Assembly: GCA_963971225.1 (NCBI GenBank)
Contig: OZ020269.1
Span: forward strand, 44,599,264 to 44,663,263
From: Melieria omissa
Lineage: Eukaryota > Arthropoda > Insecta > Diptera > Ulidiidae
Direction of reading: 5' to 3'
Length of the DNA stretch: 64,000 nt
The position numbers and the translations under genes are program-made. Every line of letters starts with the position of its first letter. The stretch's first letter is position 1. The notes beneath the pieces were generated by a model that was not told the origin of the DNA, did no database searches, and saw nothing but the letters and a program-made list of their open reading frames with translations. This document shows positions 4,303 to 52,018 of this stretch, piece after piece.

Positions 4303-5270
4303 GGGGAAAGTGGGGTAATGACGGCCATGGGGTAATGACGGCCATCACCATTTTTGGTACTTAAAGTTGACGTAGGTCTAAACCGTTTACTGTAACAGAA
4401 AGCTTGTTCCGTAAGCTTGTTTTTAAGTAGAAGCTGAAGTGTGTGGATTTATTATAACTTGTAGTTCCAGACCAGTGCCGATACGTAACTACTCGAAAGT
4501 TTTATAAGGTGTTCAAAATATCGATTATTTCGTCAAAACTTTCAGCTACACAATCAAGGTAAATATGTTAAAATGTTGCTATTGATATTAGCTTTCTAAA
4601 TCAAGTAAAATTTGTCATGTGTCTTGCATAGTTTATTTGTACTGCATGCTTGCGCAAAATGAGGTCAGTGGGGGAATGACGGCCACTAGAGGTGGGGTAA
4701 CGACGGCCATGTCATTAAGAAGTATTTTTGGAATCCGCATGATGATATTTGTTCATCATTGAGGCCTTTAATGCCATTTAAAGAGATCCACTGCTTGTCC
4801 AGTCGTTCTAGACGGTATAGCTATTCTGCACTATACATTCTCACAAGTCCCAGTCGTTGTATTGTAAGTTTGAGGCATTTTTTTCAATATGTTTCAATTT
4901 CGTTTCTCTTCCGCTTTTTGTGAGCTATCAATAAAGTTACGATTACAAAAATGTCAAATTTCCATTTGTTTTTCTTCACGGAGCCTTTATTAAGCATTCA
5001 CAGCGATTTGTGTTGATATTTGTGCGATTTCTGGTCGGTTTTTTTGAGTGGCCGTCATTACCCCACCATTTTTCTAAATGACAAAACCCAACTTTTTTTA
5101 TAGATTCTAATTTTTTATAGTTAAAATCAGAATTTTTGAATTCTGCCGATACACTTTATTAGCATATGTGTTCTAGTTGTGCTCTTAACTCTGATTTGAT
5201 CAAAAATATCAATTTTTGGATATGTTTTGATGCTAAATGAAAACTATGCCGTCATTACCCCACTTTCCCC
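4303..5270. mobile_element. E1: TA-flanked non-coding element with six GGGGTAATGACGGCCA-type motifs
   Basis: The element is 968 bp with 23-bp perfect TIRs (4303-4325 and 5248-5270, beginning GGGGAAAGTGGGGTAATGAC) and flanked by TA (4301-4302, 5271-5272). The second P-like copy preserves the uninterrupted site (about 8566-8585, minus strand), confirming TA duplication. The motif GGGGTAATGACGGCC occurs direct at 4312, 4329, 4668 (one variant base) and 4694 (one variant base), and inverted at 5050 and 5248. No coding capacity. It shares its layout with E2 (20211) and E3 (50804). Confidence 0.9.
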
Positions 5271-5960
5271 TATTAAGGCACATGTTTTACAGTCTTGTAA
5301 AAATGCTACACCTGAATGGTTCCATGGTGAGTGCTGTAACCATAGAGTCCAAATTTTAGATTTTCTTATTTTAGTTCTTCTACGAAAACACTGCATGTGG
5401 GCTGTGCAAAAAGGAAGTTCGAAAGAACGAAAATTGAAAATAATTGTTGGCAAATAAAAAAATTCTTATTAAAAATTACCTTACAATAATATTCTTAATA
5501 AATAACTATAAACGCTCTTGTGCAACATGTTTGCACCCATATTTTACTACACCAAGTTCACGCATTTTTTTGCTAATTGTAATTTGCTTGTGATTATAAA
5601 AAAGAAAGCAGAAATAACGACGCAACAATTACCAACAACATCAATGCTATCCCGCCTGCACGGCACAGCGCAAAAAACAGTATACCGCTAACTTTTTTTT
5701 GTTTGCCAATATTATAATGCTATTCCCCGCGACAACAAAAGCAGCGTTCATCGTCATGTTTATCAAGTGGCGCAACAGCAGCGAGAATACGAATGAGTAC
5801 AGAAGCGACTTCAATTCACATGTTACGCCGAAGTTACAGAGATTTCTGCTGTTAGTAACAGAGATTTCTGCTGTCAATAACAGAGGGTACTACCAGCAGT
5901 ACCCAAGTACAACGCGTTTGCTTGTATGAGATGCGCGTTCTATATTACTTCATATTCTTT
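5271..5960 (+). other. 3' non-coding part of P-like copy 1
   Basis: Matches 7509-8062 plus 8393-8585 of the inverted copy. It holds the end of the transposase region and a segment with two near-repeats of AGAGATTTCTGCTGT (about 5836-5880). Frames here are short and broken. Confidence 0.6.
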
Positions 5961-5968
5961 GCTATGAG

Positions 5969-6120
5969 GCAGTGTAGGCAAGGTGCCACTTGAAGGTCCA
6001 AATTCGATTATTACAGTTTACGTCATATGTAATAATAATCAAATTTACAATCTAATAAGTATTGGCATCATTGTTATTGTCATTTTTTTATGCGAAAGAG
6101 AGAGCAAAATATGCATGTAA
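5969..6120. other. Spacer between P-like copy 1 and a Harbinger-type MITE
   Basis: AT-rich, no gene or repeat recognised, ending with the TAA target duplicate at 6118-6120. Confidence 0.4.
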
Positions 6121-7360
6121 TATCATATTTCCACTGAGCGATTAACTGCAGTGAAGGGCTCTGTTAAATTTGAAAACTGTCAAGCGTTTCCACCGGAATC
6201 GAGTTAAATGCAACAGCTGTTTTTTATTTACATCTTTATTTCGTCAAGCCAAATTCTGCATTTATTTCTGGGCAGCCACAGCTTACCCATCGCCGCCATC
6301 TCCTTGTATACGTATGTTGTAATGATAAGACAGTCTGTCGCTGTGCAAAGCAACCCTGCCGCTTCGCGCCGTGCTATAATTCAATGTGGCAACGACGGCC
6401 GCGATAATAACTTTTAGTCCAATGTGGCAACGATGGTCGCGATCATCATGGAAACTTTTAGTCCACTCCGGAATGCGCGAGAACGAACCGCGCGATGGCC
6501 AGACAGGTATAAAAGGCAGCCGGGTGCGGCGCAGCGAGTCCGTCTGGTTTTGACAAGTGAAGTTGTCACACGGAGTAATTAAGCAAATACTTAAGTGTAC
6601 GAAAAGTAAAGTGTAAAAGTGTGAATAATAAAGTGACTGTTGGTTTATTTTATTGTCTGCGTTTAAGAAACTGACTGTGTTTTATTTTCAAATTACACAA
6701 TCCAGAGATACGTAACAGCCCACTAGACTTAGTATTCGTAACAGTATGTATGGTTTCTTGTAGCCCCTCTACTTATGAAAAACCACTCCGCTTTCCTTCT
6801 CAACAGTCTGGGAATGTCTGCGTTTTCATATTTGTGAAAACTTTTTTCATTTATCAAAATTTATTTCATTTCTTAATGCTTATTTAATTTCTGACAGTTG
6901 TCAGCTGATTGATATCAGAGCTGTCTGAATTTTTAATGTCAAGAGGGTTCATGAGAATTTCCACGTTTTTTATTTTCTTTTTCAGCATTTATTATTATTA
7001 TTATATATTATATAGACAGTATGTATTTTTGCGAAAAATGCAGTAAAAAGTAATTGTGTTGGCAAAAAATCTACCACACCGAACGCAATTCAAACTCCTT
7101 CTTTCGATTGTGTTCGTGCGGCTCTTGCAGCACCTGAAAGCATGCTATCAAAATTTTTACATTTGTGAGTATTGCCCCCTATTTTAACATAACATTTTCT
7201 GTTAGACATCTGTAAATGGCAAAACTGAGTTAACTCAGTTTTGAAAGTGAGTTCACACACTTTGATACAAAAACAATTGTATGGGAATTTGAGAATTTAA
7301 ATGCGATGTCAAACTGCAGTTAAGCGTAATCTGCAGTTAAGGCCCAGTGGAAATAGCCTA
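6121..7360. mobile_element. Harbinger-type MITE (family A/B), copy A, split by a solo LTR
   Basis: The ends are inverted and degenerate (TATCATATTTCCACTGAGCG on the left; complement of TAGGCTATTTCCACTGGGCC on the right), flanked by TAA at 6118-6120 and 7361-7363. It matches copy B (13207-15692) over both halves, including TTTCTGGGCAGCC near 6266 and GGTTTCTTGTAGCC near 6750. Without the LTR it is about 810 bp. No coding region. The 3-bp TWA duplication fits PIF/Harbinger. Confidence 0.75.
6316..6743 (+). mobile_element. Solo LTR of a retrotransposon
   Basis: A 428-bp insertion with flanking GTAT at 6312-6315 and 6744-6747; copy B shows the unoccupied sequence around 13395/15056. It has the layout of an LTR: a repeated U3 block (AATGTGGCAACGAYGGYCGC at about 6383 and 6421), TATAAAA at 6509-6515 and AATAAA at 6627-6632, ending TTCGTAACA. 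No internal retroelement sequence remains, so it arose by LTR-LTR recombination. Exact ends could shift by one base. A gypsy-like origin is possible given the 4-bp TSD. Confidence 0.75.
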
Positions 7361-7508: not shown

Positions 7509-8062
7509 CAAAGAATATGAAGTAATATAGAACGCGCATCTCATACAAGCAAGCGCGTTGTATGGCGGGTACTGCTGGTAGTACCCTCTGTTATTGACAG
7601 CAGAACCCTCTGTTACTAACAGCAGAAATCTCTGTAACTTCGGCGTAACATGTGAATTGAAGTCGCTTCTGTACTCATTCGTATTCTCGCTGCTGTTGCG
7701 CCACTTGATAAACATGACGATGAACGCTGCTTTTGTTGTCGCGGGGAATAGCATTATATTGGCAAACAAAAAAAAGTTAGCGGTATACTGTTTTTTGCGC
7801 TGTGCCGGCGGGATAGCATTGATGTTGTTGGTAATTATTGCGTCGCTATTTCTGCTTTCTTTTTTATAATCACAAGCAAATTACAATTAGCAAAAAAAAT
7901 GCATGAACTTGGTGTAGTAAAATATGGGTGCAAACATGTTGCACAAGAGCGTTTATAGTTATTTATTAAAAATATTATTGTAAGGTTTTATGTCTATTGT
8001 TTTGCTTTCGTTTTAATTTATCTTTCATAAATAATAATTTTTAATAAGAATTTTTTTATATA

Positions 8063-8392
8063 ATAATTAATAATAATTGATTGGCACGACAGCTCGCTTA
8101 CGCGAGACTAAGGTCTAGCTTCCCGCAACCACCCGTGTTGTGCGTGTGAATTTTGTACGCGAGTGGAAGGGACCTACAGTTTTATGCCGGTTCCGAACGG
8201 CAGGTTGGGAGCTTTTTCATAGGCAATTTTTACTCTCAGAGGTTTGCCATTTCCAGCTGAGAGGACAGCCACCGAAAGAGAAAACGAGTTTCCCGTTATT
8301 TTTTTTTAGGTGTTACTACATGCAGTATTCGATCTTGCGTCGCTCTGCATGCGACTCGGTGGACCGCGCACTAACCAACTGAGCCACGGCGG
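8063..8392 (-). mobile_element. tRNA-derived SINE inside P-like copy 2
   Basis: The tRNA-like head is at the right end on the minus strand: an A box TGGCTCAGTTGG and a B box of the GWTCRANNC type. The body is conserved and the tail is an (AAT/ATT)n run next to TTGATTGGCACGACAG. Copy 1 lacks it at the equivalent point (about 5455). Short T/A-rich sequence (ATTTTTATA-like) flanks both sides. Relatives lie at 27683, 33998, 41174 and 45310. Confidence 0.85.
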
Positions 8393-8570
8393 CATATTTT
8401 TATATGCCAACAATTATTTTCAATTTTCGTTCTTTCGAACTTCCTTTTTGCACAGCCCACGATTTCGTAGAAAAACTAAAATAACAAAATCTAACATTTG
8501 GACTCTATGGTTACAGCACTCACCATGGAACCATTCATTTTTACAAGATTGTAAAACGTATGCCTTAATA

Positions 8571-10622
8571 TCAATTTTTTTCAGGTTCTGCTTCGAAGAT
8601 TTTATGAAAAATTAAAATATGTTTTATGCATACATTCATTAGGGAATTGGAAGGAGCAAAAAGATTACCAAAATCAGAAATTGACTGATAATTTTTGTGA
8701 AAAATAAAAATTTCACTTGGAGCAGTCAAAACTTCATCCCTTTTTCTCAATTCGTCACCGCATTTTTCACCATTTAATTTAGAAATAATTTTGTACGCTA
8801 AGTATCCAACAAAATACCTCATGGAACCAGCTCTAAGTTAATATCGTTCGGATTACAAAAGGTGTCACCTACAAAATACACCTCGTGCATCTCACTACTT
8901 CAGATCAAGATTTTCCAGGATTTCATTGTCATTATCATCACCATTAGCCTGCAAAACATCCTCATTAAAAGAAGCGCTTGAAATTAAATTAGGCATTGAA
9001 TCTTGCGTCCCTTCACAATTGGTAGAGGAGCTAAACTTTATTATTTTAAAGGCTAATAACCTGGCTAAGATATTATTAAGTTCGGCTACAGAGGGGTTAC
9101 AGTTATTACTCCTTTTTGCCGTAACACAGCAAACGTATTCTCCAACTTGTCCTGGTTAAAGGCCTTTGTCATAATAAAAAACTTGTCCGAATTATCTTTT
9201 AATATTTCATCTACAAGTAGAAGGTCCGATTTTAAGGATAGTTTCATGCCATCTAGGAAGAAAACTCGTTTTTTCATCAACAAATTTCACTTCCTCTAGA
9301 TAATATAAAAATGTTTGAATAAATGTGTGCGATTCTTTCTTAATCTGAAGAGCAGATCGGTAGCAGTTATCTGCATACAAAGATCCACTATTCATACAAT
9401 CAAATATGTGATCAACTTTTGCTCTAAAATCAGCTGTGGATAACGCTACCTCTTGTGAGATTTTTTTAAATCCACTTATGTCTGAAATTGTTCGTATAGC
9501 AGCTTCAACTGTTTTACTGAACACTTGAGTGGACAATTTAACACGCATTTTTTCAAATGAATTTGGAAATATGTGTTGTCTAGTGAATTTTGGGCACATT
9601 TTGGTTTTACAATTTTCTTCCCTCTCCCAAAGCTCTTGAACTACTTTAAAGCTAACTAAACCATCAGGCGTTTTCAAGTCGCATTTAAGCCAACCATTTC
9701 GCAATGACTTGATTACATGCAATTTCGAAGCCTGTGCATTCAAAAACGTCAATTAAATCTAGTTTTTGCTTGTATCGTAATTCTCTACGTATTGCCATTT
9801 CGTCCATTAAAAGAACCATATTATTTTAATTTTTTTCCTTCAACTCTAAGCACATCTTTTTAATGAATTCAAAAGCCACATTGTTGATACCGGGCTGAAG
9901 GAACTTTATTGGAGCCCACCGATTTAAGGTGCTGATATGTGGCAAATTGAAATTTAACTTATCTCTTAGGAAAGAATATGTTGATTGTGAAATATAAAAA
10001 ATATTTTGCGCTAAATATTTCACTTTGTCAGAATATTCTTTTGGCCGGGTGCTAAGTAAAAGTTTACAAAATGTTTTGGATTCCAAGTTGATATGTTTTA
10101 AAGAATCAATTGAATTTTTAAAGTCTTTGAACAACAATTCTTGGATTTTAAAATAAAGCGCTTTTCTTTTCGCAATTTTTCGTTCGTTTTTTTGAATTTT
10201 TTTAATAGGTCGCTGTATTTCTTTTTGTAATAATGGGTTATTTTGACGTTTTTTTCGCAATTACTGCATACTATGTCATCATAACGTGGTCGTTTCAATG
10301 AAGAATCTGGTTCTAAAAATTCTTCATCCGAAATCTCATGATCTTCGTCTAAGTTTAAGGTTGGAATCGCATCCTTTTTTAGAAACCTTTTTCTTACATA
10401 AGTACTGGAGAAATGATTTTCACAAATATACAGTTTTCGGTTATAGTCGTTATAAGATATATTGCATTTTTCGCGCCAAATTTGGCCAAACACGAAATCA
10501 GCAGCGGGGAATCTAAATAATCTAAGATTCTCGCATTGTCGTCTCGATTTTTTGCAACTGCGCACACAACATTGAATTCCAGACGTTGAGGAATTTCTAT
10601 TTGTCTTTATATTTGTAGCCAT
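8571..10622 (-). pseudogene. P-like transposase (copy 2), multiply broken
   Basis: Starts at the ATG complementary to 10620-10622. The THAP part and the following lysine-rich region are in one frame to about 10098 (the first frameshift of copy 1 is absent). Further pieces are 10260-9826, 9752-9207, 9283-9086 and 8822-8571. Part of the LMDEM-to-RNase-H region near 9752-9800 is deleted: FECTGFE is followed directly by IKSLRNGWLKCDLK. Several frameshifts separate the rest. Together with copy 1 this shows the family protein, but neither copy is intact. Confidence 0.88.
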
Positions 10623-10689
10623 ATTGTAACAAGCCGAAACACAAAATAGAATTACAATGTTGGACAATGGCGTTAAAATACTTCTTAAA

Positions 10690-11051
10690 AAAATTCAAAA
10701 TTGGTATCAACTACGTCAAAATATAAACAAATAATTTTTCTTGGAATACACCACGTAAAAATATTTCTAGAAATTTCAAATTGGATTCAACCACGTCAAA
10801 AAAAAACCGCTGCAAAAGGTTCAAAATTGGTATCAACCACGTCAAAATATAAAAAAATGATTTTACTTGGAACTCGCCACGAAAAAATATTTGTGAAAAT
10901 TTCAAATTGGATTCAACCACGTCAAAAAAAAAACCGCTGCAAAAGGTTCAAAATTGGTATCAACCACGTCAAAATATAAACAAATGATTTTACTTGGAAC
11001 TCGCCACGTAAAAATATTTGTGAAAATTTCAAATTGGATTCAAGCACGTCT
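10690..11051. repeat. 126-bp repeats (3 units) in P-like copy 2
   Basis: Reverse-complement counterpart of the array at 1025-1890. Units run 11051-10926, 10925-10800 and 10799-10690. Each has the same three ACGTGG-headed subunits, with a few substitutions. Confidence 0.9.
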
Positions 11052-11536
11052 AAATATTTGCACGTTTTAAAAATCAATCAAAGCGCAGCATTTGAGCAAA
11101 CAGCCATACACCACAAAGCTTCGATTGATAGTGACATTACAGAAATTTGTGCAGCAAAACCAAAAAAGCATACACACAATAAACGACAACAACAAAAACA
11201 TTAACGAATCCCGAGTCATCTTCGCTGAAACGATGATGACGATGCTTTGGTTCGTTGTTTGCTCTTTGCTTGCGCTTCGGCAAACAAGATCAAGAGACAT
11301 ACATGCAAAAACTGATTGAGCGAACACTACGCTGCAACAACCACCATTTCAATGTACACGAGTGAAGCCGTTGCGAACAATAACATTGCTTTTTGCTGTT
11401 GTCCAACGAAAATCTAACAGAAAATATTATGAACATGAACATTAACATTCTCAAATGCCTACGCTTCGCTTTTCCCGTTAGCATCATAACAGCCGAACAT
11501 GCGCGTTTTATATTACTTCATATTCTTTTCTACAGT

Positions 11537-20208: not shown

Positions 20209-20210
20209 TA

Positions 20211-21185
20211 AGGGAGAGGGCTGGGTTGTGAACCAGGCTGGGGTGTGAACCATTGCCGTTTTTTCTTTCCCTAATTGACATATCGCCAATCTTTCAACTG
20301 TCAATTTTGTCTTATGATATGACTCTGCTCTGTGGTTACACCGAAGTACAAACACGTATTGCTTGTGGCAGCAATCGAGTTTGAAAGACATCGTGTTTGA
20401 AAATCGACTGCGAAAACTTGTTGGCTTTTTTTTAAAGTGCTATCTTAGTGACTGAGCTTATTGCAAAAAGGTCAGTGTAATACATGTTTATTTAGTGTTT
20501 TGATTCTATTTTACGATGCAATATTTGTTTATGTCGAATTATGATTGGAAGTGTCGTTTATTTTAAAGTTTCCAAAATGGCATCGTGGTTGGGCTGTGAA
20601 CCACTGAGGTGGCTGGGTTATGAACCACCTGTTTTTCGTACTACATTTGTTCTAACACTGTCAAATATGGACGGATATATTAAAATAAAGTCATTTTATA
20701 TAATTTAACTCGATTTCGTTGTGTTCACTTGAAGTGAGCCAATACGAGAACACGTTCGTATTTCACATGCAAACATTCCGACACAGATTAGGATGAAAAT
20801 TTAAAAAATTGAGCAGTTTCATTCATTGCGATTTTTTGGCCTAAGAGGCGTCATTATAACTTTTTTTCACCTCTTGAGGCTTCCTGATTAAATAAATTCT
20901 CAATGTACTTAAAAATTATGGGTGTTTTCTTCGTATTTTCTGACTTTAATAGGGATTTTCCAGATGGTTCACAACCCAGCCACTTTTTTGAAAAAGCGAA
21001 AAATCACGTTCTTAGAAAATTGGACGTAGAGAGTTAAATTTCAATCAAAACGGTAATCTGTCTTCATAACAAAGTTGCGTTATATATTCACCTTTCCAAC
21101 GGTATCTTCGATTTTTCGATATCTTTATTCTGAGAAAAGTTAGAGCCGAAAAACAAAACCCGGTTCACACCCCAGCCCTCTCCCT
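20211..21185. mobile_element. E2: TA-flanked non-coding element with six GGCTGGGTTGTGAACCA-type motifs
   Basis: A 975-bp element with ends AGGGAGAGGGCTGGG on both sides, flanked by TA (20209-20210, 21186-21187). It lies exactly at the rrnL/trnL1 border of the NUMT. Motif copies are direct at 20221, 20239, 20588 and 20611, and inverted at 20966 and 21163. No coding capacity. Same layout as E1 and E3. The segment before the right tip (about 21134-21160, GTTAGAGCCGAAAAACAAAA) resembles the same place in E3. Confidence 0.88.
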
Positions 21186-21186
21186 T

Positions 21187-21251: not shown

Positions 21252-21284
21252 CTTGATTTTTATAGAAGGGAGCTTAATTTTAGT

Positions 21285-38964: not shown

Positions 38965-39544
38965 TAATTCGCGTACTTCGAATAGTTCATATAAGCCTCA
39001 AATTAATTAAACCTTTTTTGTTAGTTTTCGAACTTTTGCATGTTCACCCCTCTTCAATTCGCTCCTAAGTTTATTTTCCACAAATATTTGCATGCATTTG
39101 TAATGCCAGCCGGTCGAGTTAAATTACGTGAAGGTAGCTAAACATAAAACAGCAAGGGGTGCCACTACAAAAAAATGAATTACATGTGGATTTGCAAGCG
39201 ACGGTGTATTTGTGCGTAGCTACGTAAGTATATATGAACATAATTTGTATATATAGTATATACTTACATACGTTACCTACTATATAAACATAATAAACTT
39301 ATTCTGCCATTTCGCTTTGTCTTTGTTAAAAGCCTCACCCAGATTTCGTCTGGCCAGACGACAAAGTGCAGATGTGTGTTAAACGTTATTCGCTTATTCG
39401 GTTAGCTTTTAAGAAAACATTTAACGGTTCTGTTTTTCCATAAGCGCACGTTGTTGCGGTTGTCGACGCATAAATTTTAATCAATTCTATTTGTACTTTT
39501 CGCTGCGACATTGGTAACCAAAATGAGTGTGCTATTTAAAAATA

Positions 39545-40060
39545 TTTCGAATCAAGCTTTTTGACAAAGTATCCTAAGGGGCCTAAATGGTCAGTTAAAA
39601 CCACTTCCACGTTTGCTAAGAGGTGGTCTGAACGCTATGCAGAAACAGGAAACGTTGACGACGAACCAGAAAGAGGCCGAAACCACGCCACTTCCAAGCT
39701 GCAGGATAAAGTCATCGTTGGGCTTTTTGAAAGAAACCCAACGGTCAGTCTGAGAGAAGCCAAAAAATACTATCGGAGAAGGGCCTGGATATATCCTGAA
39801 ATACGATTCGTGACAGGATTCAGCAATCAAGCATAAAACGTAGCGGTACTTTGTCAAAACCGTTGCTTTCAAAAAAGCATATTGAAAAGCGTCTTCACTG
39901 GGCTTACACATATATCGATCGTGATTGGACCAAAGTAATATTTACAGATGAATCAACTTTTGTGTTGTTTAATCAAATAAGACATGTTTGATTGAAACAA
40001 GGTGACAAATTTGTTTAACGAAGTGAAAAGCATCCCAGAAGAGTCATGTGTATTAGTGTC
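39545..40060 (+). pseudogene. Tc1-like transposase fragment (duplication copy 1)
   Basis: N-terminal part FAKRWSERYAETGNVDDEPERG (39591-39660) then LSKKHIEKRLHWAYTYIDRD and WTKVIFTDESTF, the first catalytic block. The second and third catalytic blocks are absent. No TIRs found. Confidence 0.75.
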
Positions 40061-40763
40061 CCAGTCTATAAGGACACATTTTTTTGGCGAATGGTGTTAA
40101 GCATACACCTTATTTTTTTCCATTTGACCCTAATGACTTAAATAATAAATATTATGGCGATCGGATAACGATAACCCGTGCCGACTTGATATCAAACTTT
40201 AGCATGAAAAGTTAGTATAGAAGCCGTAGAGATATACACCGTCGGTATAGAAGTTGATGGAGTCGTCGGTCGATAACTCGGTATCTATCCATTCATCCCT
40301 GCGAGGGATGCGGATAGTGAACCCGTGATCAAGCTTAGTGGGGGTGCTGATGTGATCGATGCCGGTAGACATTCAATTAAACTTTAAGTGGTTGGAAAAC
40401 TAACCCATATTAAACTAGTTTCCAAACTACTTTCTTTACAACTGGTCTATAAACTGTTTTACTTAGGACTAACTTTGGACTAGTTGCAATCCCCCGTCCG
40501 CAAATGGATGCAGACGGAGACAGTTGACTGTCGCATAGGACAGGACCATGTTAAAAGGGTGAGTTCGCTCCAAGGAAGCGAATCGGTACTAAAGTCAGCT
40601 ATGACCGACAAGCAACCAGTTGAAAAACTATATTTGGACCAGTCCGAATTCCTAAAGGGTATCTTTCTATTACATGGAGGGTGGTAGTAAACTGCAGTTT
40701 TTCTGCTCTTAACCATCGTGGGAGTAACAAGGGCATCGGGATCAGAATAGTGCTTACAGTATT
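40061..40763. other. Unassigned spacer (also 44197-44899 in copy 2)
   Basis: Holds a GC-richer segment (40170-40380) reading like part of an old retroelement, but no domain is recognisable. Ends at the TATA target site of the Sola-like element. Confidence 0.35.
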
Positions 40764-40767
40764 TATA

Positions 40768-43181
40768 TCGAGCCTTAGTCGCCAAAATATCGTAAGCGCC
40801 ATTTTTTCGAAATTTTTGTTTTTATTGAAAATAAAAGTTTCACATCAGACGGACCTGTCTGCAAAATTACAAATCTCAGTAATGAATAACCCCCGAGAAA
40901 ACGAGTCGTCAATTTTATCGTTTGAATTGTTTACTTGTTTGCATGGTTGCCAAATTATCGTAAGCGCCACTATGAACACAAGCAACTTCCAACTGCAACC
41001 TTGTCAAGACGAACAGCTCCGCAAGTGATATGGAAATAACTAACTGTAATTTTTTATTTCTTGTTACACATTCTGTTTTGTGCGTGATTACAAACGTTTG
41101 GTTAATTTTGGTAGAGAAAACATCCACGTAAATCATGGAATCTTTGGCTGCAAAGGTACAATGTTTTTAAATATTTAATTAATAATAATAATTGATTGGC
41201 ACGACAGCCCGCTTACGCGAGACTGAGGCCTAGCTTCCCGCAACCACCCTTGTTGTGCGTGTGAATTTTGTACGCGGGTTGAAGGGACCTACAGTTTTAT
41301 GCCGGTTCCGAACAGCAGGTTGGGAGCTTTTTCATAGGCAATTTTTACTCTCAGAGGTTTGCCATTTCCAGCTGAGAGGACAGCCACCGAAAGAGAAAAC
41401 GAGTTTCCCGTTATTTTTTTTAGGTGTTACTACATGCAGAATTCGAACTTGCGTCGCTCTGCATGCGACTCGCTGGACCGCGCACTAACCAACTGAGCCA
41501 CGGCGGCTGTCTGTCAATGTTTTTAAATACTTATCTATAATATGAGTTACAAATATTACAAGATATCATATTTTGTAGGAAGCTGGCATGGGAATAAGAA
41601 AAATTGTTGATTACGAAGATATGGATTTTGAAGGATCAACATTAATGGAATTCGATGGGGAAAACTGTGTTGGAACACGAGGGAAAAAAACACGAAAATA
41701 CTCACACAAAAAAATACTGGGAAGGAGTGAAAATTGCACTGGTGTAAATAAGTCGGTGAAACCTAATCCATGTCAGGGTAAAAAATGCGGAAATATGTGT
41801 TCAGAATATTTTTCGGAAGTAGATCGCATCAACATTCACAATCATTATTGGGGGATGGCAAGTTCTCAACGACAAAAAGATTGGCTTCTTTCATGCAGCA
41901 AGTGCAAGAACATTGGGAGAAGAAGAGTGCACCTCTGACAAAAAAAGAAAATATCTTATGATTATTACATTCGTTTCCAAGGAAAGCAAATCAAAGTTTG
42001 TCAACAGTTTTTATTACAAACTCTTGAGATTTCGCAAATGACTCTGCGTTCTGCCAGAGCTAAATCAAAAGTCATAAACACCTGTGCCGCTACTAAACGA
42101 AAACGTTCGGCTCATAATAAATCCGATGCCACCAAAGTAGAACTTTTAAGAAAATATATTCAGGATTTGCCGGCCGTCCCGTCACACTATTGCCGCAACA
42201 AAAGTAGGAAACTTTATTTACCGCAAGAGTTTCGAAATATATCTACTTTTTACAAGTTATATAAGCAAAGTTTAGAGACGAGTGGTGAGGCATCTAACAC
42301 TTTGTCTATACATGTGTTTCGAAAATTTTTTCATAAAGATTTCCATTTGGGGTTTCATATTCCAAAGAAGGACAAATGCAATTTGTGTGAGAAATTTACT
42401 CACATGAACAGAGACGAGCAGATCAGATTTCAGCAAAATGACGTTTACAAAAATCATATTAAAGATAAAGAAAGGTCAAAACAACTTTTTTTACCTGACC
42501 AAGCAACAAGCAAAACAGAAAACCCAAAGTTTTTATGTGCAAGCTTTGATTTGCAAAAAGTGCTGAACACTCCTCATGGTAATAGCGTTAACCTTTATTA
42601 TTCCCGAAAATATGCATACTACAACGTAAGCATTTATAAAAGTGGAACGAGATCTGGTTATTGTTTTCTGTGGGGTGAAATTGATGGTCGACGGGGGTGT
42701 AATGAGATTTGTTCTGTAATGTTTAGATATTTAAAAATAGTAGATGAAAGAAAAATGTACAGCACAGTGAGTCTTTACAGCGACAGCTGTGCAGGTCAAA
42801 ATCGCAACAGAGCTTTCTTATCTATGCTTGCTTCTTTCCTTAAAACTTCTGGTTTCATTAAAAATATTACAATAATTTATTTATTGCCAGGGCACACAAT
42901 GATGCCAGTAGATTCCATACACAGTACAATTGAATCCTTTACCAAAGCAAGAAAAGGTTGGGCTCCCTCAGAGTGGCCAACAATTATTTCTAATTCTCGA
43001 ACAAATCCGAGATGCTATGAAAGCATTGTAATGACTCACAAAGATTTCATGGATTGGAAAACCTTTTCGCAAACATTATTACCACCGACTAGAAAAATAA
43101 AATTTAAAAGTTTGCGATCGGCATACTTTGATAAAACAAGTTCTAATATAAAAATTAAGTACGGATATTTTGACGATAGCG
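40768..43181 (+). mobile_element. Sola-like element, left half only (duplication copy 1)
   Basis: Starts TCGAGCCTTAGTCGCC after TATA (40764-40767). It carries the subterminal motif ATCGTAAGCGCCA at about 40787 and 40959, a SINE (41174-41514) and most of the reading frames. The duplication breakpoint removes the C-terminus and right TIR, so this copy cannot be mobile by itself. Confidence 0.85.
41174..41514 (-). mobile_element. tRNA-derived SINE (duplication copy 1)
   Basis: Flanked by the 15-bp TSD CAATGTTTTTAAATA (41159-41173 and 41515-41529). Minus-strand head with A box TGGCTCAGTTGG and B box AAGTTCGAATTC; ATT-rich tail. Confidence 0.93.
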
Positions 43182-43204
43182 ACCCCTCTTCAATTCGCTC
43201 CTAA
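41588..43204 (+). pseudogene. Sola-like (DUF7869-type) transposase, truncated copy
   Basis: Same as 45724-47514 up to residue KYGYFDDS, after which the duplication joint adds a short unrelated tail and a stop. Confidence 0.8.
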
Positions 43205-43680
43205 GTTTATTTTCCACAAATATTTGCATGCATTTGTAATGCCAGCCGGTCGAGTTAAATTACGTGAAGGTAGCTAAACATAAAACAGCAAGGGGTGCCA
43301 CTACAAAAAAATGAATTACATGTGGATTTGCAAGCGACGGTGTATTTGTGCGTAGCTACGTAAGTATATATGAACATAATTTGTATATATAGTATATACT
43401 TACATACGTTACCTACTATATAAACATAATAAACTTATTCTGCCATTTCGCTTTGTCTTTGTTAAAAGCCTCACCCAGATTTCGTCTGGCCAGACGACAA
43501 AGTGCAGATGTGTGTTAAACGTTATTCGCTTATTCGGTTAGCTTTTAAGAAAACATTTAACGGTTCTGTTTTTCCATAAGCGCACGTTGTTGCGGTTGTC
43601 GACGCATAAATTTTAATCAATTCTATTTGTACTTTTCGCTGCGACATTGGTAACCAAAATGAGTGTGCTATTTAAAAATA

Positions 43681-44196
43681 TTTCGAATCAAGCTTTTTGA
43701 CAAAGTATCCTAAGGGGCCTAAATGGTCAGTTAAAACCACTTCCACGTTTGCTAAGAGGTGGTCTGAACGCTATGCAGAAACAGGAAACGTTGACGACGA
43801 ACCAGAAAGAGGCCGAAACCACGCCACTTCCAAGCTGCAGGATAAAGTCATCGTTGGGCTTTTTGAAAGAAACCCAACGGTCAGTCTGAGAGAAGCCAAA
43901 AAATACTATCGGAGAAGGGCCTGGATATATCCTGAAATACGATTCGTGACAGGATTCAGCAATCAAGCATAAAACGTAGCGGTACTTTGTCAAAACCGTT
44001 GCTTTCAAAAAAGCATATTGAAAAGCGTCTTCACTGGGCTTACACATATATCGATCGTGATTGGACCAAAGTAATATTTACAGATGAATCAACTTTTGTG
44101 TTGTTTAATCAAATAAGACATGTTTGATTGAAACAAGGTGACAAATTTGTTTAACGAAGTGAAAAGCATCCCAGAAGAGTCATGTGTATTAGTGTC
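43681..44196 (+). pseudogene. Tc1-like transposase fragment (duplication copy 2)
   Basis: Identical to the fragment at 39545-40060 as far as I can see. Present only because of the tandem duplication. Confidence 0.75.
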
Positions 44197-45309
44197 CCAG
44201 TCTATAAGGACACATTTTTTTGGCGAATGGTGTTAAGCATACACCTTATTTTTTTCCATTTGACCCTAATGACTTAAATAATAAATATTATGGCGATCGG
44301 ATAACGATAACCCGTGCCGACTTGATATCAAACTTTAGCATGAAAAGTTAGTATAGAAGCCGTAGAGATATACACCGTCGGTATAGAAGTTGATGGAGTC
44401 GTCGGTCGATAACTCGGTATCTATCCATTCATCCCTGCGAGGGATGCGGATAGTGAACCCGTGATCAAGCTTAGTGGGGGTGCTGATGTGATCGATGCCG
44501 GTAGACATTCAATTAAACTTTAAGTGGTTGGAAAACTAACCCATATTAAACTAGTTTCCAAACTACTTTCTTTACAACTGGTCTATAAACTGTTTTACTT
44601 AGGACTAACTTTGGACTAGTTGCAATCCCCCGTCCGCAAATGGATGCAGACGGAGACAGTTGACTGTCGCATAGGACAGGACCATGTTAAAAGGGTGAGT
44701 TCGCTCCAAGGAAGCGAATCGGTACTAAAGTCAGCTATGACCGACAAGCAACCAGTTGAAAAACTATATTTGGACCAGTCCGAATTCCTAAAGGGTATCT
44801 TTCTATTACATGGAGGGTGGTAGTAAACTGCAGTTTTTCTGCTCTTAACCATCGTGGGAGTAACAAGGGCATCGGGATCAGAATAGTGCTTACAGTATTT
44901 ATATCGAGCCTTAGTCGCCAAAATATCGTAAGCGCCATTTTTTCGAAATTTTTGTTTTTATTGAAAATAAAAGTTTCACATCAGACGGACCTGTCTGCAA
45001 AATTACAAATCTCAGTAATGAATAACCCCCGAGAAAACGAGTCGTCAATTTTATCGTTTGAATTGTTTACTTGTTTGCATGGTTGCCAAATTATCGTAAG
45101 CGCCACTATGAACACAAGCAACTTCCAACTGCAACCTTGTCAAGACGAACAGCTCCGCAAGTGATATGGAAATAACTAACTGTAATTTTTTATTTCTTGT
45201 TACACATTCTGTTTTGTGCGTGATTACAAACGTTTGGTTAATTTTGGTAGAGAAAACATCCACGTAAATCATGGAATCTTTGGCTGCAAAGGTACAATGT
45301 TTTTAAATA

Positions 45310-45650
45310 TTTAATTAATAATAATAATTGATTGGCACGACAGCCCGCTTACGCGAGACTGAGGCCTAGCTTCCCGCAACCACCCTTGTTGTGCGTGTGA
45401 ATTTTGTACGCGGGTTGAAGGGACCTACAGTTTTATGCCGGTTCCGAACGGCAGGTTGGGAGCTTTTTCATAGGCAATTTTTACTCTCAGAGGTTTGCCA
45501 TTTCCAGCTGAGAGGACAGCCACCGAAAGAGAAAACGAGTTTCCCGTTATTTTTTTTAGGTGTTACTACATGCAGAATTCGAACTTGCGTCGCTCTGCAT
45601 GCGACTCGCTGGACCGCGCACTAACCAACTGAGCCACGGCGGCTGTCTGT
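45310..45650 (-). mobile_element. tRNA-derived SINE (duplication copy 2)
   Basis: Duplicate of the SINE at 41174-41514, with the same TSD at 45295-45309 and 45651-45665. Confidence 0.93.
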
Positions 45651-45723
45651 CAATGTTTTTAAATACTTATCTATAATATGAATTACAAATATTACAAGAT
45701 ATCATATTTTGTAGGAAGCTGGC

Positions 45724-47514
45724 ATGGGAATAAGAAAAATTGTTGATTACGAAGATATGGATTTTGAAGGATCAACATTAATGGAATTCGATGGGGAAAA
45801 CTGTGTTGGAACACGAGGGAAAAAAACACGAAAATACTCACACAAAAAAATACTGGGAAGGAGTGAAAATTGCACTGGTGTAAATAAGTCGGTGAAACCT
45901 AATCCATGTCAGGGTAAAAAATGCGGAAATATGTGTTCAGAATATTTTTCGGAAGTAGATCGCATCAACATTCACAATCATTATTGGGGGATGGCAAGTT
46001 CTCAACGACAAAAAGATTGGCTTCTTTCATGCAGCAAGTGCAAGAACATTGGGAGAAGAAGAGTGCACCTCTGACAAAAAAAGAAAATATCTTATGATTA
46101 TTACATTCGTTTCCAAGGAAAGCAAATCAAAGTTTGTCAACAGTTTTTATTACAAACTCTTGAGATTTCGCAAATGACTCTGCGTTCTGCCAGAGCTAAA
46201 TCAAAAGTCATAAACACCTGTGCCGCTACTAAACGAAAACGTTCGGCTCATAATAAATCCGATGCCACCAAAGTAGAACTTTTAAGAAAATATATTCAGG
46301 ATTTGCCGGCCGTCCCGTCACACTATTGCCGCAACAAAAGTAGGAAACTTTATTTACCGCAAGAGTTTCGAAATATATCTACTTTTTACAAGTTATATAA
46401 GCAAAGTTTAGAGACGAGTGGTGAGGCATCTAACACTTTGTCTATACATGTGTTTCGAAAATTTTTTCATAAAGATTTCCATTTGGGGTTTCATATTCCA
46501 AAGAAGGACAAATGCAATTTGTGTGAGAAATTTACTCACATGAACAGAGACGAGCAGATCAGATTTCAGCAAAATGACGTTTACAAAAATCATATTAAAG
46601 ATAAAGAAAGGTCAAAACAACTTTTTTTACCTGACCAAGCAACAAGCAAAACAGAAAACCCAAAGTTTTTATGTGCAAGCTTTGATTTGCAAAAAGTGCT
46701 GAACACTCCTCATGGTAATAGCGTTAACCTTTATTATTCCCGAAAATATGCATACTACAACGTAAGCATTTATAAAAGTGGAACGAGATCTGGTTATTGT
46801 TTTCTGTGGGGTGAAATTGATGGTCGACGGGGGTGTAATGAGATTTGTTCTGTAATGTTTAGATATTTAAAAATAGTAGATGAAAGAAAAATGTACAGCA
46901 CAGTGAGTCTTTACAGCGACAGCTGTGCAGGTCAAAATCGCAACAGAGCTTTCTTATCTATGCTTGCTTCTTTCCTTAAAACTTCTGGTTTCATTAAAAA
47001 TATTACAATAATTTATTTATTGCCAGGGCACACAATGATGCCAGTAGATTCCATACACAGTACAATTGAATCCTTTACCAAAGCAAGAAAAGGTTGGGCT
47101 CCCTCAGAGTGGCCAACAATTATTTCTAATTCTCGAACAAATCCGAGATGCTATGAAAGCATTGTAATGACTCACAAAGATTTCATGGATTGGAAAACCT
47201 TTTCGCAAACATTATTACCACCGACTAGAAAAATAAAATTTAAAAGTTTGCGATCGGCATACTTTGATAAAACAAGTTCTAATATAAAAATTAAGTACGG
47301 ATATTTTGACGATAGCGAAGTTGAAGTGGTTAATATGAAGTTAAACACTCGATTGAGACAGAACTCAAAGGTTGTCGCAAATGGCCCTACTCCACTCTAT
47401 AACAATCGTTTGTACATCTCTGAACTTAAGTACAAGGATTTGAAAAGTATATGTGAAAAGGTACCCGAAAGGTATCATAAAGAATACCTGGATATGAGTT
47501 GTAATGCACAATAG
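45724..47514 (+). pseudogene. Sola-like (DUF7869-type) transposase
   Basis: The first frame (45724-46074) has an acidic/basic N-terminus and a Cys-rich stretch (CQGKKCGNMCSEYFSEVDRI). After frame changes near 46050 and 46095 comes the long frame to 47514. It contains a zinc-binding-like CNLCEKFTHM, FLCASFDLQKVL, VSLYSDSCAGQNRNRAFLSM and YLLPGHTMMPVDSIHSTIES, the D..C.GQN.N and PGH.xMPxD blocks I associate with arthropod DUF7869 proteins of Sola-like transposons. The stop at 47512-47514 is TAG from the inserted element; the frame continues after it at 49881 (VQDTLAETDVEN, stop about 49921). Attribution to Sola rests on recall plus the 4-bp TSD. Confidence 0.78.
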
Positions 47515-49872
47515 GCTGGAGTGAAAATGGCCAAAAAAAATTTTTTTTGGAATATCAATTAGCTAGATATCTCAAAATGTGCCAATACATCAATATAAAG
47601 CTGTGTAAAAATTAAAAAGAAATTAAACAATTTTTTGATCTCCCATCGCAACTTTTAATTTCACAGTATTACGCGACATTAAAGATAGTCATCTTAAAAT
47701 TCAATTAAAAATCAAATACGCTTCTAATTACAATATTTAATGATGTCAAAGTTATAAACACATGGTTACAGGGTGAAGTGACAAAAATCACGTTTCGACT
47801 CGAACGTCGGCATTTGCTGACGAGAAGCAATGCGTGCACGGATGTCGCGTCGAAGTTAAGTTTTGCAGGAACCTTGAACCTCCGTATTTGTCCACTGGGG
47901 ACTGCTGTAGCTCTGGCCTTCATCACTCGTCGTAAGCCCAGTTCACGTATATGTGGTCGATGGTCCGTCATCATGGCCAGGAGCACATTCTCCGGGTGAG
48001 CAAAGTACGCGTTACGGTGAATAACGGGGTCAACGATTCCCTTGAGTTTGGAGCTGAGGTAACGTGACTTGACAAGCATCTGGTGAATCCAGAGAATCCG
48101 TGTGGGTCTGTCGTCCCGCCATCGAGTGACTGGAATAGATTAAGTCGCCGGATAACGCCCGATTTTTGTCCCGTGTTTACGTTTGTGCCGTCACACCCGA
48201 CAACTTTAATATTATCTGTCTTCGCATTTTGCTCTTTGATACTAGCGACTAAGTACTCAGCTATGTCTTTGCTGCAGCCTGATGACGGAGACGTATGGTT
48301 GAAGTACGAAGAACCCGGCTCTGCGATGATGGTTATGTGTTCTTCCGATATGGTTTTTCTGTGGTACTTGTTGTCGACGGCGAGGACTTGTGTTAAAGTT
48401 TTATCCTTGCGGCCATCAAAAAATAGTCCATCTATGCCCTTGTGAGTGTGGTCGTCTTCATTCTGCCTCAGTTCCTTTCGAATTTTACTGCGTTTTCGAC
48501 GGATTTTGCTTCGGTCGATTACTTTGGATCGGTCGTTGAGTGATACGAGACCAAGATCATGCAGAACTGTTGTTGCTAATACAGCAGCTGATCTGTCCGA
48601 AACTCCGGTCCGATCGCAAGCTATAGCGAGGGAAGGCAGAGAGATAGTAATTTTTTGGCACTCTCGATCCTGATTTCGCTTAGTTTTGAGTGATTCTCTA
48701 TCTGGGATGTACTCATAGACAGTGGGACTGTCAGACGAGTCCGTGTCGTATTCGGAACTTTCGGCAGAATAGGGTTGACTTTTGCTCGCATCGTCATCGA
48801 TCTTCTTAATCTTCATTCGTTTGAGATTTGCTTCCTCTCTTTCAGCTTTTCTCTTCAATTTTGATGTTACCACTTGATCTGTACCACCGATTATCATCTT
48901 TCTTGGCCCTCTCTGGTCTTGAAGGAACTGCCGTTCGTTTGCCGGAATTTTGTTGTGTTTCGTACATTTGCAATTGGCCACCATATCGGAGCACTTGCAT
49001 TTGCTGAGATCAAACAGAGTGTTAGCTTTGTCACGAAAGTCCGATAATCTCCGTTGGTAGTTTGGTTGATTCCTTTTACATTTGTTGACTTTTAGCATTG
49101 TGTTGTATTTGTCGTGGAACGATCTAAGTTTTTCTATCGCTTGTGCATGCGTTACTGTTGGAAGTGAGGCCCTTTGCCATATCTCTTCGACTTCATAGCA
49201 CAGTTTTTGAGATATGTCAAAAAATTATGGGTATTTACCATTGTCCGTCTTCAGATCTTGTCAAAGTTGAATATATTTCTTCATGAGATCGGTGTAGGTC
49301 GGCAGAGTATTGGTCGGCAGGTTTCGTGGAGCGCCAAATATCACGCACGAAACTTTGTCTCTTGTAACTGTCATCTCTTTAAAAATATAAAGAAATAACT
49401 AGTAACCCTTCACTGCCCTACCTTTTTGCGCACAAGTTCAGGTACTCACCTTTTTTTTGTTTTTTTCGGTCACTCGGTCACTTCACAAGGAAATCGTGAA
49501 CATTCAACAATCATAAACAGAATTAAACTAGCGGGGTTTGCCACATTCCAACGATTAAAACACGAATTGTAATTTGTAATATTTTATTCGCTCAAACAGG
49601 ACTGCTACAATAAATAACTTAAAACCCGCAAACCTAAAGCAAAGGCTACTGAGATTTATTTTGAATCCTTAACTGAGTTGAAATTACGACTTTCACTTCT
49701 TTCGGCGAAAGTGAAAAAAGTATTAAAAAAAATTATTTCAATTAGGTGATGGGCGATCAAGGAGTTGTTAGAAACTAATATAATTTTGCAGGATTGGTAC
49801 CATGGACATTTGGCACATTTACAATATACTAGCTTCTTAAAATTTTAAAATCAATTTTTTCACTCCACCCTA
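47512..49872 (-). mobile_element. 8-bp-TSD DNA transposon of unrecognised superfamily
   Basis: A 2361-bp element with TIR TAGGCTGGAGTGAAAA / complement of TAGGGTGGAGTGAAAA. The duplicated host sequence ATGCACAA is at 47504-47511 and 49873-49880; a further two bases TA also match on both sides, so the TSD could be 8 to 10 bp. It carries one minus-strand gene (next entry). It sits in the last codons of the Sola-like frame. Confidence 0.85.
47705..49098 (-). pseudogene. Protein of the 8-bp-TSD element, one frameshift
   Basis: The first 375-codon frame (49098-47971) has a Cys-rich N-terminus (SKCKCSDMVANCKCTKHNKI), a basic, nuclear-localisation-like part (KLKRKAEREEANLKRMKIKK), an acidic Ser-rich linker, and a core with DRTGVSDRSAAVLA, DGLFFDGRKD and VVGCDGTNVNTGQKSGVIRR. 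It continues in the 48079-47705 frame with VKSRYLSSKLKGIVDPVIHR, NAYFAHPENVLLAMMTDHRP and LGLRRVMKAR. This recalls a widespread uncharacterised arthropod protein family; I cannot name it. A segment after GVIRRLN seems deleted. The D residues in FFDGR, GCDGT and the C-terminal part could be catalytic, which is speculation. Likely the transposase because it is the only gene between the TIRs. Confidence 0.65.
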
Positions 49873-49880
49873 ATGCACAA

Positions 49881-50484
49881 GTCCAGGATACCTTAGCAGA
49901 GACTGACGTTGAAAACTGAAGAGCAAATAATTTATAACTTTTTTGAATAAACTTTTTTTTACTGTGAAATGTTAAATTTTATTCTAAGCTGAAATGTAAT
50001 TTGAAGTTGAAATGTTTTTTTTTGGTATTATTACATTTGTTACTTCTTTTGTAGTTAAATAAATATTGTTGAAACTACAAATTTGTTTTTAATTGTTAAT
50101 TTTAACCCACTATTTTCTGCTAGTTTTCATAATGCTTTTACAATATTTTACAATTCATAATAACTTTTGCGACTATATTATTATAAACATGACAAGAAAA
50201 CAAATTAAAAGGGAAGCCAACGTCAAACATTTTTATCGTAAGCGCCACAGCTTGTGCGTGCTTCACAATATTCGTGGTAGCAAAATTATCGTAAGCGCCA
50301 TTAAATACGCTCCTGTTATGCGAATCCAATTTTTTTTATCGGTATTCCACAAATAACTTTAAACCAGTAATGCATGCACAAAATGGAAGCATTTAATAAC
50401 ATAATATAAAAGAAAAACACAAAAAACCGTTTCCTGTAAAATTACGAATTTGGCGCTTACGATATTTTGGTGACTAAGGCTCGA
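49881..50484 (+). other. Right part of the Sola-like element
   Basis: The last transposase codons to about 49921, then AT-rich 3' non-coding sequence with the ATCGTAAGCGCCA motif twice in direct orientation (about 50236 and 50285) and once inverted in the TIR. Confidence 0.7.
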
Positions 50485-50488
50485 TATA

Positions 50489-50801
50489 TTCAAATTCTAT
50501 GATTGCAATAGATCGCGCCTAAGCATTAACCGTCATACCATAAACACCATCTCAATATTGCGAGCAGACAATTTTTTCTATATCTTATGATCAAAAAAGA
50601 ACGAGAATTAAAATCAAATTCTTTATTATCCCCTTTCAAAACTTTCCTCCTCAAGCGAAGCGCCGCAACGGCTGAAATGTTTTGCTGTCAGCCATGTTGC
50701 AAAAAGGTCCCTATTTATGACTGCATACACCACTGAAAATGTTGAATTTCTTAAAAACGTGCAAGTTTGTGCAGCTAAAGTCTATGGTTTCTCTTAATAC
50801 A
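50489..50801. other. Spacer between Sola-like element and E3
   Basis: Nothing recognised. AGATCGCGCCTAAGCA (about 50511) resembles GCTTAGGCGCGATAT in the repeats at 55492-55745. Confidence 0.35.
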
Positions 50802-50803
50802 TA

Positions 50804-52018
50804 GGGTAAAAGGTTCGGTTGTGGGCATAGTTCGGTTGTGGGCACCCCTTCGTATCTCTTGATAGAAAGCAGGCTGGGTTTTTTTTGACTAAGGCCATTT
50901 GTTCATTATGGAACCACGATCTTTTTGTGCCAAATACTAAGTCGAACAGACACGCCTGCTTTGTGCTGGGACCATATATATCTTTCTGTGCTTAAAAAAT
51001 AAGACAAACATTTTTTTACACATTTTAAATGGTGTCATAAAACGAAGTGAATCCATCGAGAAGGCGAGTAAAATGCATTTTTATTTAGTTAATTTATTAT
51101 ACTTTGTGATCCAATATTGATTACAACCAATATGTTTACCCCGAACAAATTTTTCACTACTTCTCAAAATGGCTGCCAAATTCGGTTGTGGGCACCGCAA
51201 TTAGTTCGGTTGTGGGCACCCGTCTTTTAGTGATTTTGTAAGTTTTGGTAAGTTATTTCATCAAAAATGGTCTTTTAACGCATTTTTTGGTTGTTTTAGC
51301 TATATCTTCCGAGGGTAAATAACAAAAATCCTCCGATATTTTTTTAATGTGTTGGATGTAATTTAACATTGTTCTGCAGATAAGCTAACCACAAAATCGA
51401 CCTGCCGCAGCGTATGCGATTTCCCAACGCTACAAAAAGAAGGTGGAAGAAAATTTCGGAGACATCAAAGCTGTCGACGGTGGTGTTTTCTTCTTTTTCT
51501 TCTTTTCGTGGATGTTATCGAATCAGGTTGACTGGTGTTTTCCACCTTCTTCACGTCACAGCACTTGAAGAGTGTTAATTAATTAGGTTGAATTTCATTT
51601 TACTTTAGGTCTTCTTGACAGCCCAGGAGAATGACTTGGTCACTTACATTTTGAAATGCCCATCCATCTAAAATGTGCCCACATGCGTACCAGCTACTTC
51701 ACATGCGTGCATTGTGCTTCAAATAATTAAAACTTAATATTTTTCTATATTCGTGTTGGTTTTTTTAATATTTCCTCGTTTCCAGCAGATTTTCCAAGGG
51801 TGCCCACAACCGAACCAAAAAAAGTTTTTGTTAAAAATGACTACTTTACAAAATTAAAAAAAAAAATTTTCTATTTGACGGAATCGATTTACTTTTGTCA
51901 TTACTTGTTAGCTAAGGCTTCTAGCTTTCCATAGATGTCCATATGTCCGATTAAGAAGAACTTGGTAAAAAGTTATGAGCCAAAAACAAAAAGGTGCCCA
52001 CAACCGGACCCATTCCCC
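50804..52018. mobile_element. E3: TA-flanked non-coding element with six GGTTCGGTTGTGGGCACC-type motifs
   Basis: A 1215-bp element with ends GGGTAAAAGGTTCGG / complement of GGGGAATGGGTCCGG, flanked by TA (50802-50803, 52019-52020). Motif copies are direct at 50812, 50829, 51181 and 51204, and inverted at about 51799 and 51993. No coding capacity. Left-half spacing equals that of E2 (+377 and +400 from the start). It shares a pre-terminal block with E2 (GTTATGAGCCAAAAACAAAA, about 51971-51990). Confidence 0.85.

Follow-up and report, generated by a model that had tools for sequence, protein, structure and literature searches.

Three short TA-flanked element families of Melieria omissa share a six-site plan and are very probably derived from pogo-superfamily transposons

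How can three transposable elements carry different repeated words and yet hold them at the same distances? The question is raised by a stretch of 64,000 nucleotides of the genome of the fly Melieria omissa (Diptera, Ulidiidae; assembly GCA_963971225.1, contig OZ020269.1, positions 44,599,264 to 44,663,263), hereafter the window, which contains three elements of about 1 kb, termed E1, E2 and E3. An earlier note on this DNA had described them as unrelated-looking, non-coding and TA-flanked, as fitting no described family known to its author, and as sharing one motif architecture, possibly that of a multi-site transposase complex co-evolving with its binding site. The analysis presented here leads to the view that E1, E2 and E3 very probably represent families resembling miniature inverted-repeat transposable elements (MITEs), which arose by internal deletion of pogo-superfamily transposons and retained six putative transposase sites in one end design.

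Each of the three elements has six copies of a private 17-bp word (M1 to M6, from left to right), the left copies reading forward and the right copies reversed. In a common 17-mer frame, with offsets counted from the left tip for the left sites and from the right tip for the right sites, the copies lie at 9, 26, 367, 391 and 206, 9 in E1, at 9, 26, 377, 401 and 205, 9 in E2, and at 9, 26, 376, 400 and 203, 9 in E3. The 8-bp tips, the abutment of M1 on M2, and the gap of 7 bp between M3 and M4 are identical in all three. Site cells match the consensus of their own element in 98 of 102 cases in E1 and in 96 of 102 in both E2 and E3. E3 has in addition a seventh, weaker inverted match, which deviates in 3 of 17 letters, lies 328 bp away from its right tip, and is without counterpart in E1 and E2. 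When the window was scanned blindly for a word repeated in tandem at 16–18 bp and accompanied by two inverted copies, exactly three places emerged, which were E1, E2 and E3; the same scan found none in 20 first-order Markov randomisations of the window. The shared plan with private motifs thus stands as it had been described, the coordinates and motifs being right and the offsets within 2 bp.

The consensus words of E2 and E3 differ at 7 of the 17 positions, those of E1 and E2 at 10, and those of E1 and E3 at 11. At these differing positions the letter of the element's own consensus is carried by 38–40 of 42, 56–59 of 60, and 61–63 of 66 cells, respectively; therefore, the six copies of one element change together. 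The spacers between the sites were compared by ranking their similarity against 1000 background segments. For the M2–M3 spacer, the score of E2 against E3 was reached by none of the 1000 segments, and these two spacers are plainly homologous; E1 and E2 have a weak likeness (8 of 1000 reach the score), and E1 against E3 is at background level (457 of 1000). The M5–M6 spacer is weakly alike in all three pairs (4, 2 and 1 of 1000), and no likeness was found in the middle region between M4 and M5. Judged by sequence, E1, E2 and E3 are related and do not constitute a new superfamily, so that the description of the three as unrelated-looking could not be upheld.

A stretch in the middle of E3, which we took to be pogo-like, prompted a search for transposases with the DDE_1 model (PF03184; cut-off 22 bits) in the genome (490 Mb in 164 contigs). 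This gave 150 scored matches of 248 candidates, and 10 of the 150 loci, picked as representatives of groups (L202 to L211), were examined. Four of them contain a transposase-bearing element on the same plan, with TA on both sides: L202 (2,967 bp; offsets 9, 26, 367, 391 and 204, 9), L204 (2,727 bp; 9, 26, 376, 400 and 204, 9), L207 (2,979 bp; 9, 26, 368, 392 and 205, 9), and the second element of L206 (2,910 bp; 9, 27, 366, 391 and 205, 9), which belongs to the same family as L203 (98.6% identity over 2.5 kb). L207 uses the word of E2 itself, and the other three use three other words; the words of the four agree in 5–10 of 17 letters. When these four are taken together with E1, E2 and E3, the M5–M6 spacer is 177–180 bp, the M3–M4 spacer 7–8 bp, and the M2–M3 spacer either 322–325 or 333–334 bp in the seven elements. 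The inner left pair (M3 and M4) is thus found near 367 or near 376 bp, and these two lengths, approximately 10 bp apart, occur both between families and within the E2 family.

The transposase gene is directed from the four-site end toward the two-site end. The exon-2 frames match DDE_1 with 64.9 bits in L202, 66.5 in L203, 65.1 in L204 and 54.4 in L207, and L210 scores 67.8 bits; as to a putative catalytic DDD triad, conserved DET/DES and LLLLDNH stretches are visible in the alignment. For the DNA-binding regions, HTH_psq was above its cut-off in exon 1 of L203 and HTH_Tnp_Tc5 was below its cut-off in exon 2 of L207 (18.8 vs 22.2 bits); exon 1 of L202 gave sub-threshold helix-turn-helix matches only, exon 1 of L207 one unrelated sub-threshold match only, and exon 1 of L204 no match in the domain search. 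The frames are not all unbroken, the exon-2 regions of L202 and L207 having stops, and no active copy is claimed among these elements. Identity among L202, L203, L204 and L207 is 42–57% in the catalytic part of exon 2, 41–61% in the first 80 residues of exon 2, and 18–30% in exon 1. The cysteine-rich C-terminal finger of these pogo-type transposases is weakly like PHD or C1 (below the Pfam cut-offs in L202 and L210, by eye in L211). The transposase of L204 has 1381 relatives at an E value of 0.001 or better; the named ones among the 120 listed are from insects, including gall midges, Anastrepha, Drosophila willistoni, ants and wasps, with Contarinia, Sitodiplosis and Leptopilina among the genera. 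A PDB sequence search with the same protein found nothing.

The link to pogo is strongest for E2, good for E3, and weaker for E1, where it consists of the tips, the word and the spacers. Positions 1–506 and 607–975 of E2 are 89.7% and 88.9% identical to the two ends of L207, and the transposase region is missing. With both ends matching and the gene gone, E2 derives by internal deletion from a pogo-type element of 2,979 bp. E3 contains three transposase-like pieces in the order of the gene (Table 1), of which the finger match is solid and the other two are modest, not far above noise; further tblastn matches of the transposases to E1, E2 and E3, at E values of 0.11–0.75, were taken as noise. 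Of the earlier description of the elements as non-coding and TA-flanked, the TA flanks stood, whereas E3 proved not to be entirely devoid of a coding past, as it contains degenerate fragments of a transposase gene. L202 comes closest to E1 (77.6% identity over the first 49 bp, 13 of 17 letters of the word, spacers with z of 3.6 and 3.0), and the second element of L206 follows at little distance (12 of 17 letters, z of 2.4 and 3.1). Of the 143 exact E1 left tips, the 100 listed were compared by eye with the 150 scored DDE_1 matches, and no match was located inward of a tip at up to 3 kb. One E1 left tip, at G000:C1:90838353, adjoins a DDE_1 match, and one full E1 copy, at G000:C3:46708378-46709345, adjoins an element of the L203 family; each lies 1–1.5 kb beside its neighbour and not around it. 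The claim that no described family has this make-up was therefore not sustained, since the three are, in all probability, MITE-like deletion derivatives of pogo-superfamily transposons, with E1 as the weakest link.

Free variation of the internal positions had been named beforehand as the finding that would speak against a shared plan, and this is not what was found. In the E2 family (copies 84–100% like the E2 of the window; 31 copies kept of 34 stretches, L159 and L162 being one interrupted place and L178 being interrupted), the step from M3 to M4 is 24 in 31 of 31 copies. The step from M5 to M6 is 195–198 in 29 of the 31 (183 and 209 in the other two), and that from M2 to M3 is 349–352 in 20, 340–342 in nine, 346 in one and 321 in one. 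The positions of the sites in this family do not drift freely. The choice of 23 of the 31 copies relied on an exact left tip with its TA, so that M1 and the left-hand TA of these 23 are present by construction. In L181 the M4 word is interrupted by inserted sequence, and in L156 it is shortened. When conservation was compared with that of spacer windows, M3 and M5 ranked near the 2nd percentile, i.e., they are better conserved. Since the copies are kin, the constancy within the E2 family is weak evidence for selection, and the 12 copies of E3 and 20 copies of E1 are too alike to inform on variation of position. At both ends of L156 (G000:C1:60597435-60599400), the left-tip word is present in exact form and the tip has one site, so that this copy can be seen as a more symmetric variant of the E2 family.

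The insertion sites are in keeping with those of TA-targeting elements: TA is present on both sides in 31 of 31 copies of E2, 12 of 12 of E3, and 19 of 20 of E1, the exceptional E1 copy (L196) being without one base of its tip. E1 interrupts a P-element-like sequence within its transposase gene (TNP-like domains by Pfam), and an inverted second copy of this sequence, without E1, provides the empty site, with a single TA (Table 1). E2 lies directly beside a tRNA-like gene, the first base of which forms part of its right flank (Rfam tRNA at 21187-21251, 29 bits, with a gathering score of 29), in surroundings that are presumably a nuclear copy of mitochondrial rRNA, tRNA-Leu and ND1. Exact 27-base left tips number 985 for E2 and 143 for E1 in the genome, and a control with the backwards sequences gave 0 for each. 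The best 40 of 1468 first-look candidates for E2 were listed at 100% identity, the best 40 of 638 for E3 at 97–100%, and the best 40 of 183 for E1 at 99–100%; older copies of the E2 family are also present, down to approximately 80% identity. With the best 40 matches of each family at 97–100% identity, the spread of these three mobile families is in part recent.

Table 1. Coordinates of E1, E2, E3 and associated features in the window
Feature	Position	Strand	Remarks
E1, 968-bp non-autonomous element	4303..5270	+	TA duplication 4301-4302, 5271-5272; inside P-element-like transposase gene
E1 M1 and M2, head to tail	4311..4344 (M1 4311-4327, M2 4328-4344)	+	
E1 inner left pair	4669..4709 (M3 4669-4685, M4 4693-4709)	+	7 bp apart
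E1 inner right site M5	5049..5065	-	
E1 right-tip site M6	5246..5262	-	
Inverted second copy of P-element-like host without E1	8441..8640	-	empty site, single TA
E2, 975-bp non-autonomous element	20211..21185	+	TA 20209-20210, 21186-21187; within mitochondrial-DNA-like stretch
E2 left part common with L207 left end	20211..20716	+	89.7%
E2 M1 and M2	20219..20252	+	
E2 inner left pair	20587..20627 (M3 20587-20603, M4 20611-20627)	+	
E2 possible remnant of transposase C-terminal zinc finger	20717..20776	+	tblastn E 0.006, one internal stop
E2 right part common with L207 right end	20817..21185	+	88.9%
E2 inner right site M5	20965..20981	-	
E2 right-tip site M6	21161..21177	-	
E3, 1,215-bp non-autonomous element	50804..52018	+	TA 50802-50803, 52019-52020
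E3 M1 and M2	50812..50845	+	
E3 inner left pair	51179..51219 (M3 51179-51195, M4 51203-51219)	+	
E3 stretch like end of transposase exon 1	51428..51532	+	tblastn E 0.039, weak, near noise
E3 stretch like start of exon 2	51609..51659	+	10/17 residues as in L207, E 0.022; after splice-acceptor-like stretch
E3 stretch like transposase C-terminal zinc finger	51662..51721	+	13/20 residues as in L210, E 4e-6
E3 inner right site M5	51800..51816	-	
E3 right-tip site M6	51994..52010	-	

Taken together, the findings are best read as the earlier note had suggested, in terms of a transposase complex that occupies several sites and evolves in concert with them: four transposase-bearing elements use four words and keep the plan within 10 bp. 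The transposase, in which a putative helix-turn-helix exon at the N terminus and a further putative DNA-binding region accompany the DDE_1 catalytic domain, would be supplied by relatives elsewhere in the genome, and its N-terminal DNA-binding region would contact the six words. The spacers of approximately 325–334 bp and 178 bp would be looped, the two ends, arranged as inverted repeats that point toward one another, would be paired, cutting would occur at the tips, and insertion would occur at TA; the MITEs would retain the sequences needed in cis. We infer that the transposase binds the words, that selection on the complex holds the spacing, and that reader and site evolve in concert. One layout kept with changing words suggests a transposition machinery of constant geometry and variable recognition code. 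The low identity of the first exon fits such a co-evolution of reader and site. Since the two M2–M3 lengths are about one helical turn apart, there is a slight hint, drawn from seven elements, that the inner left pair must face one side of the helix. A more specific proposal is made tentatively, with the chances somewhat against it: that one pogo clade has a frozen synaptic geometry (left sites at 0, 17, ~358/368 and 382/392 from the first site; right sites 194–197 apart), in which the inner left pair would differ by one helical turn only, and in which the exon and the six sites would switch words together.

Several findings weigh against the main interpretation. No convincing coding remnant was found in E1 by tblastn with the transposases, and no transposase-bearing partner with the own word of E1 or of E3 was found. 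The doubled left tip is not invariant, as a single site is present there in 5 of the 31 E2-family copies, and M2, M4 and M6 (33rd, 21st and 37th percentile) are not clearly better conserved than spacer windows in that family. The close pairs of the L206 element are spaced 18 and 25, not 17 and 24. Of the 10 pogo loci examined, 6 do not display the whole plan: the left end of L203 is beyond the stretch examined; L205 and L210, members of a single subfamily, carry one tip site and two inner sites at the right end, and a left tip was found for neither; L208 and L209 belong to other pogo groups with different repeat arrays (AACCTCTATAAGCGAG; GTTGCTTATATAGAA); and no plan was seen in L211. Thus, the plan belongs to part of the pogo elements of this genome and is not general. 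Finally, residual weak similarity of the spacers between most families implies that part of the conserved spacing is due to shared descent.

This last point leads to the explanation in which the fixed spacing is inheritance alone, i.e., the families split too recently for insertions and deletions to have accumulated, and no selection acts on the geometry. The weak likeness of the M2–M3 and M5–M6 spacers across most pairs of families is as this explanation would have it, as is the close kinship of the E2-family copies, whose shared spacing is not independent. It is nevertheless considered unlikely, because the transposases differ at 43–58% of catalytic residues and at 70–82% of exon 1 residues, yet M5–M6 remains 177–180 bp and M3–M4 7–8 bp in all seven elements; because the M2–M3 spacer of E1 and E3 is at background level while the spacing is kept; and because the inner left pair is found at two places approximately 10 bp apart and is not spread. 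Instead of the transposase, host proteins (enhancer, insulator or heterochromatin factors) could recognise the words, as the inner left sites of the transposase-bearing elements are upstream of the gene, a position that regulatory sites would share. This is most improbable, given that the words are private to each family, are common to E2 and its transposase-bearing relative, include a site at the tip, and are inverted between the ends; moreover, one host protein is not expected to have a different site in every family of one genome.

The remaining alternatives concern other superfamilies, and are best seen beside what is known of pogo. Several transposase sites per end are also found in Sleeping Beauty and in pogo itself; the pogo transposase of Drosophila melanogaster is said, after Wang et al. 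in 1999, to bind a 12-bp word that is present twice per end, with the outer copies near the tips. Emigrant, with Lemi1, is a pogo-derived MITE: short, high in copy number, TA-flanked, non-coding, and moved by a pogo-type transposase. The families described here are unlike Emigrant in keeping long ends with all six sites (506 and 369 bp of E2 are common with L207). Excerpts of PMC7386202 describe pogo elements with a TA duplication, and the elements of M. omissa agree with that description in their DDE_1 transposase, putative N-terminal helix-turn-helix regions and TA duplication, in a terminal inverted repeat not exceeding 40 bp (an 8-bp tip followed by a 17-bp site in the present elements), and in their length (2.7–3.0 kb, inside the reported 1.2–5.2 kb); counts of MITE copies are available for pogo elements that duplicate TA (PMC7325037, in excerpt). 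The asymmetric plan of four and two sites is not mentioned for pogo in the excerpts of PMC7386202, nor was it met in the open-access literature searched, which is no proof that it is unpublished. For a Tc1-like group with inverted repeat/direct repeat (IR/DR) layout, it can be said that Bari also has a TA duplication, and that its 18-bp transposase site is directly repeated several times in the outer 250 bp or so at each end (PMC4877112, in excerpt). Bari belongs to another transposase family, however, and has three sites per end, its MITEs mostly one (the same excerpt), against four and two here; the linked transposases are far above the DDE_1 cut-off, DDE_3 is above cut-off in L207 only, and one exon 1 matches HTH_psq. 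Membership of the Tc1-like IR/DR (DD34E) group is therefore barely credible, the linked transposases being of DDE_1 type. ISL2EU, of the PHIS superfamily, was considered because its tips usually begin with GG, as do those found here, and was dropped: its target duplication is AT within AATT and its transposase is different (PMC4482050, in excerpt), whereas the empty site of E1 has a single TA.

The window contains further repeats beside the three families. The P-element-like sequence that hosts E1 is present twice as a large inverted pair (548-5463 and 8394-11531), of which one copy is split by E1; identity of the pair is mostly 97–98%, with some outer parts at 87–91%, and tandem repeats of 126–127 bp lie toward both outer ends. 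The mitochondrial-DNA-like stretch at ~20100-25540, which we take to comprise the end of the large-subunit ribosomal RNA gene, tRNA-Leu, ND1 and cytochrome b (the tRNA alone was checked), is interrupted by several elements, including E2. Element D (44900-50488; 5.6 kb) is bounded by inverted ends of 38 bp; its + strand carries a DUF7869 gene, and its - strand another long frame. The word TATCGTAAGCGCCA occurs in it five times: twice near the left end, at a distance of 168 bp, and three times at the right end, twice forward and once inverted; for these five copies of its own 14-bp word it was considered as a partner of E1, E2 and E3, and was dropped because layout and protein differ. Its left part is included in a tandem repeat of 4,137 bp at 99.95% identity (39046-43182 and 43182-47318), and a search of the open-access literature for DUF7869 gave no paper. 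The region 52290-54020 is perhaps a piggyBac-like remnant with repeated subterminal words: it contains several words similar to TGTGACATTTCTGTTACAAACC, TTAA is present close to either end, and one frame has a weak likeness, below the cut-off, to DDE_Tnp_1_7. A repeat of approximately 330 bp, present in five copies at about 96–97% (8057-8393, 27680-28012, 34000-34329, 41179-41509 and 45315-45645), looks like a short interspersed nuclear element, one end being tRNA-like by eye. In viral contigs, the three exact site words occurred in 7, 7 and 1 contigs, with one match each and no plan, and the word of element D with a single match per contig among those listed and no plan; both were taken as chance. 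A Tc1-like protein of the window had no match in viral contigs, a reverse transcriptase no relative in the genome contigs, and a meaningless frame of E2 no protein relatives.

If the spacing is under selection, one genome would hold a natural series of transposons in which the recognition code is separated from the architecture. A series of different 17-mers and DNA-binding exons on one scaffold would allow the role of each site to be asked; the concerted change of a protein and its six sites without loss of function, and whether helix phasing matters, would also be open to study. If the geometry is indeed frozen, each family would be an orthogonal pair of transposase and site on a common chassis. 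As the transposase of L204 has many relatives in insects, the plan can be tested widely. The derivation from pogo would explain how three MITE families have been spreading now or recently, and the plan gives a plain rule for finding further families.

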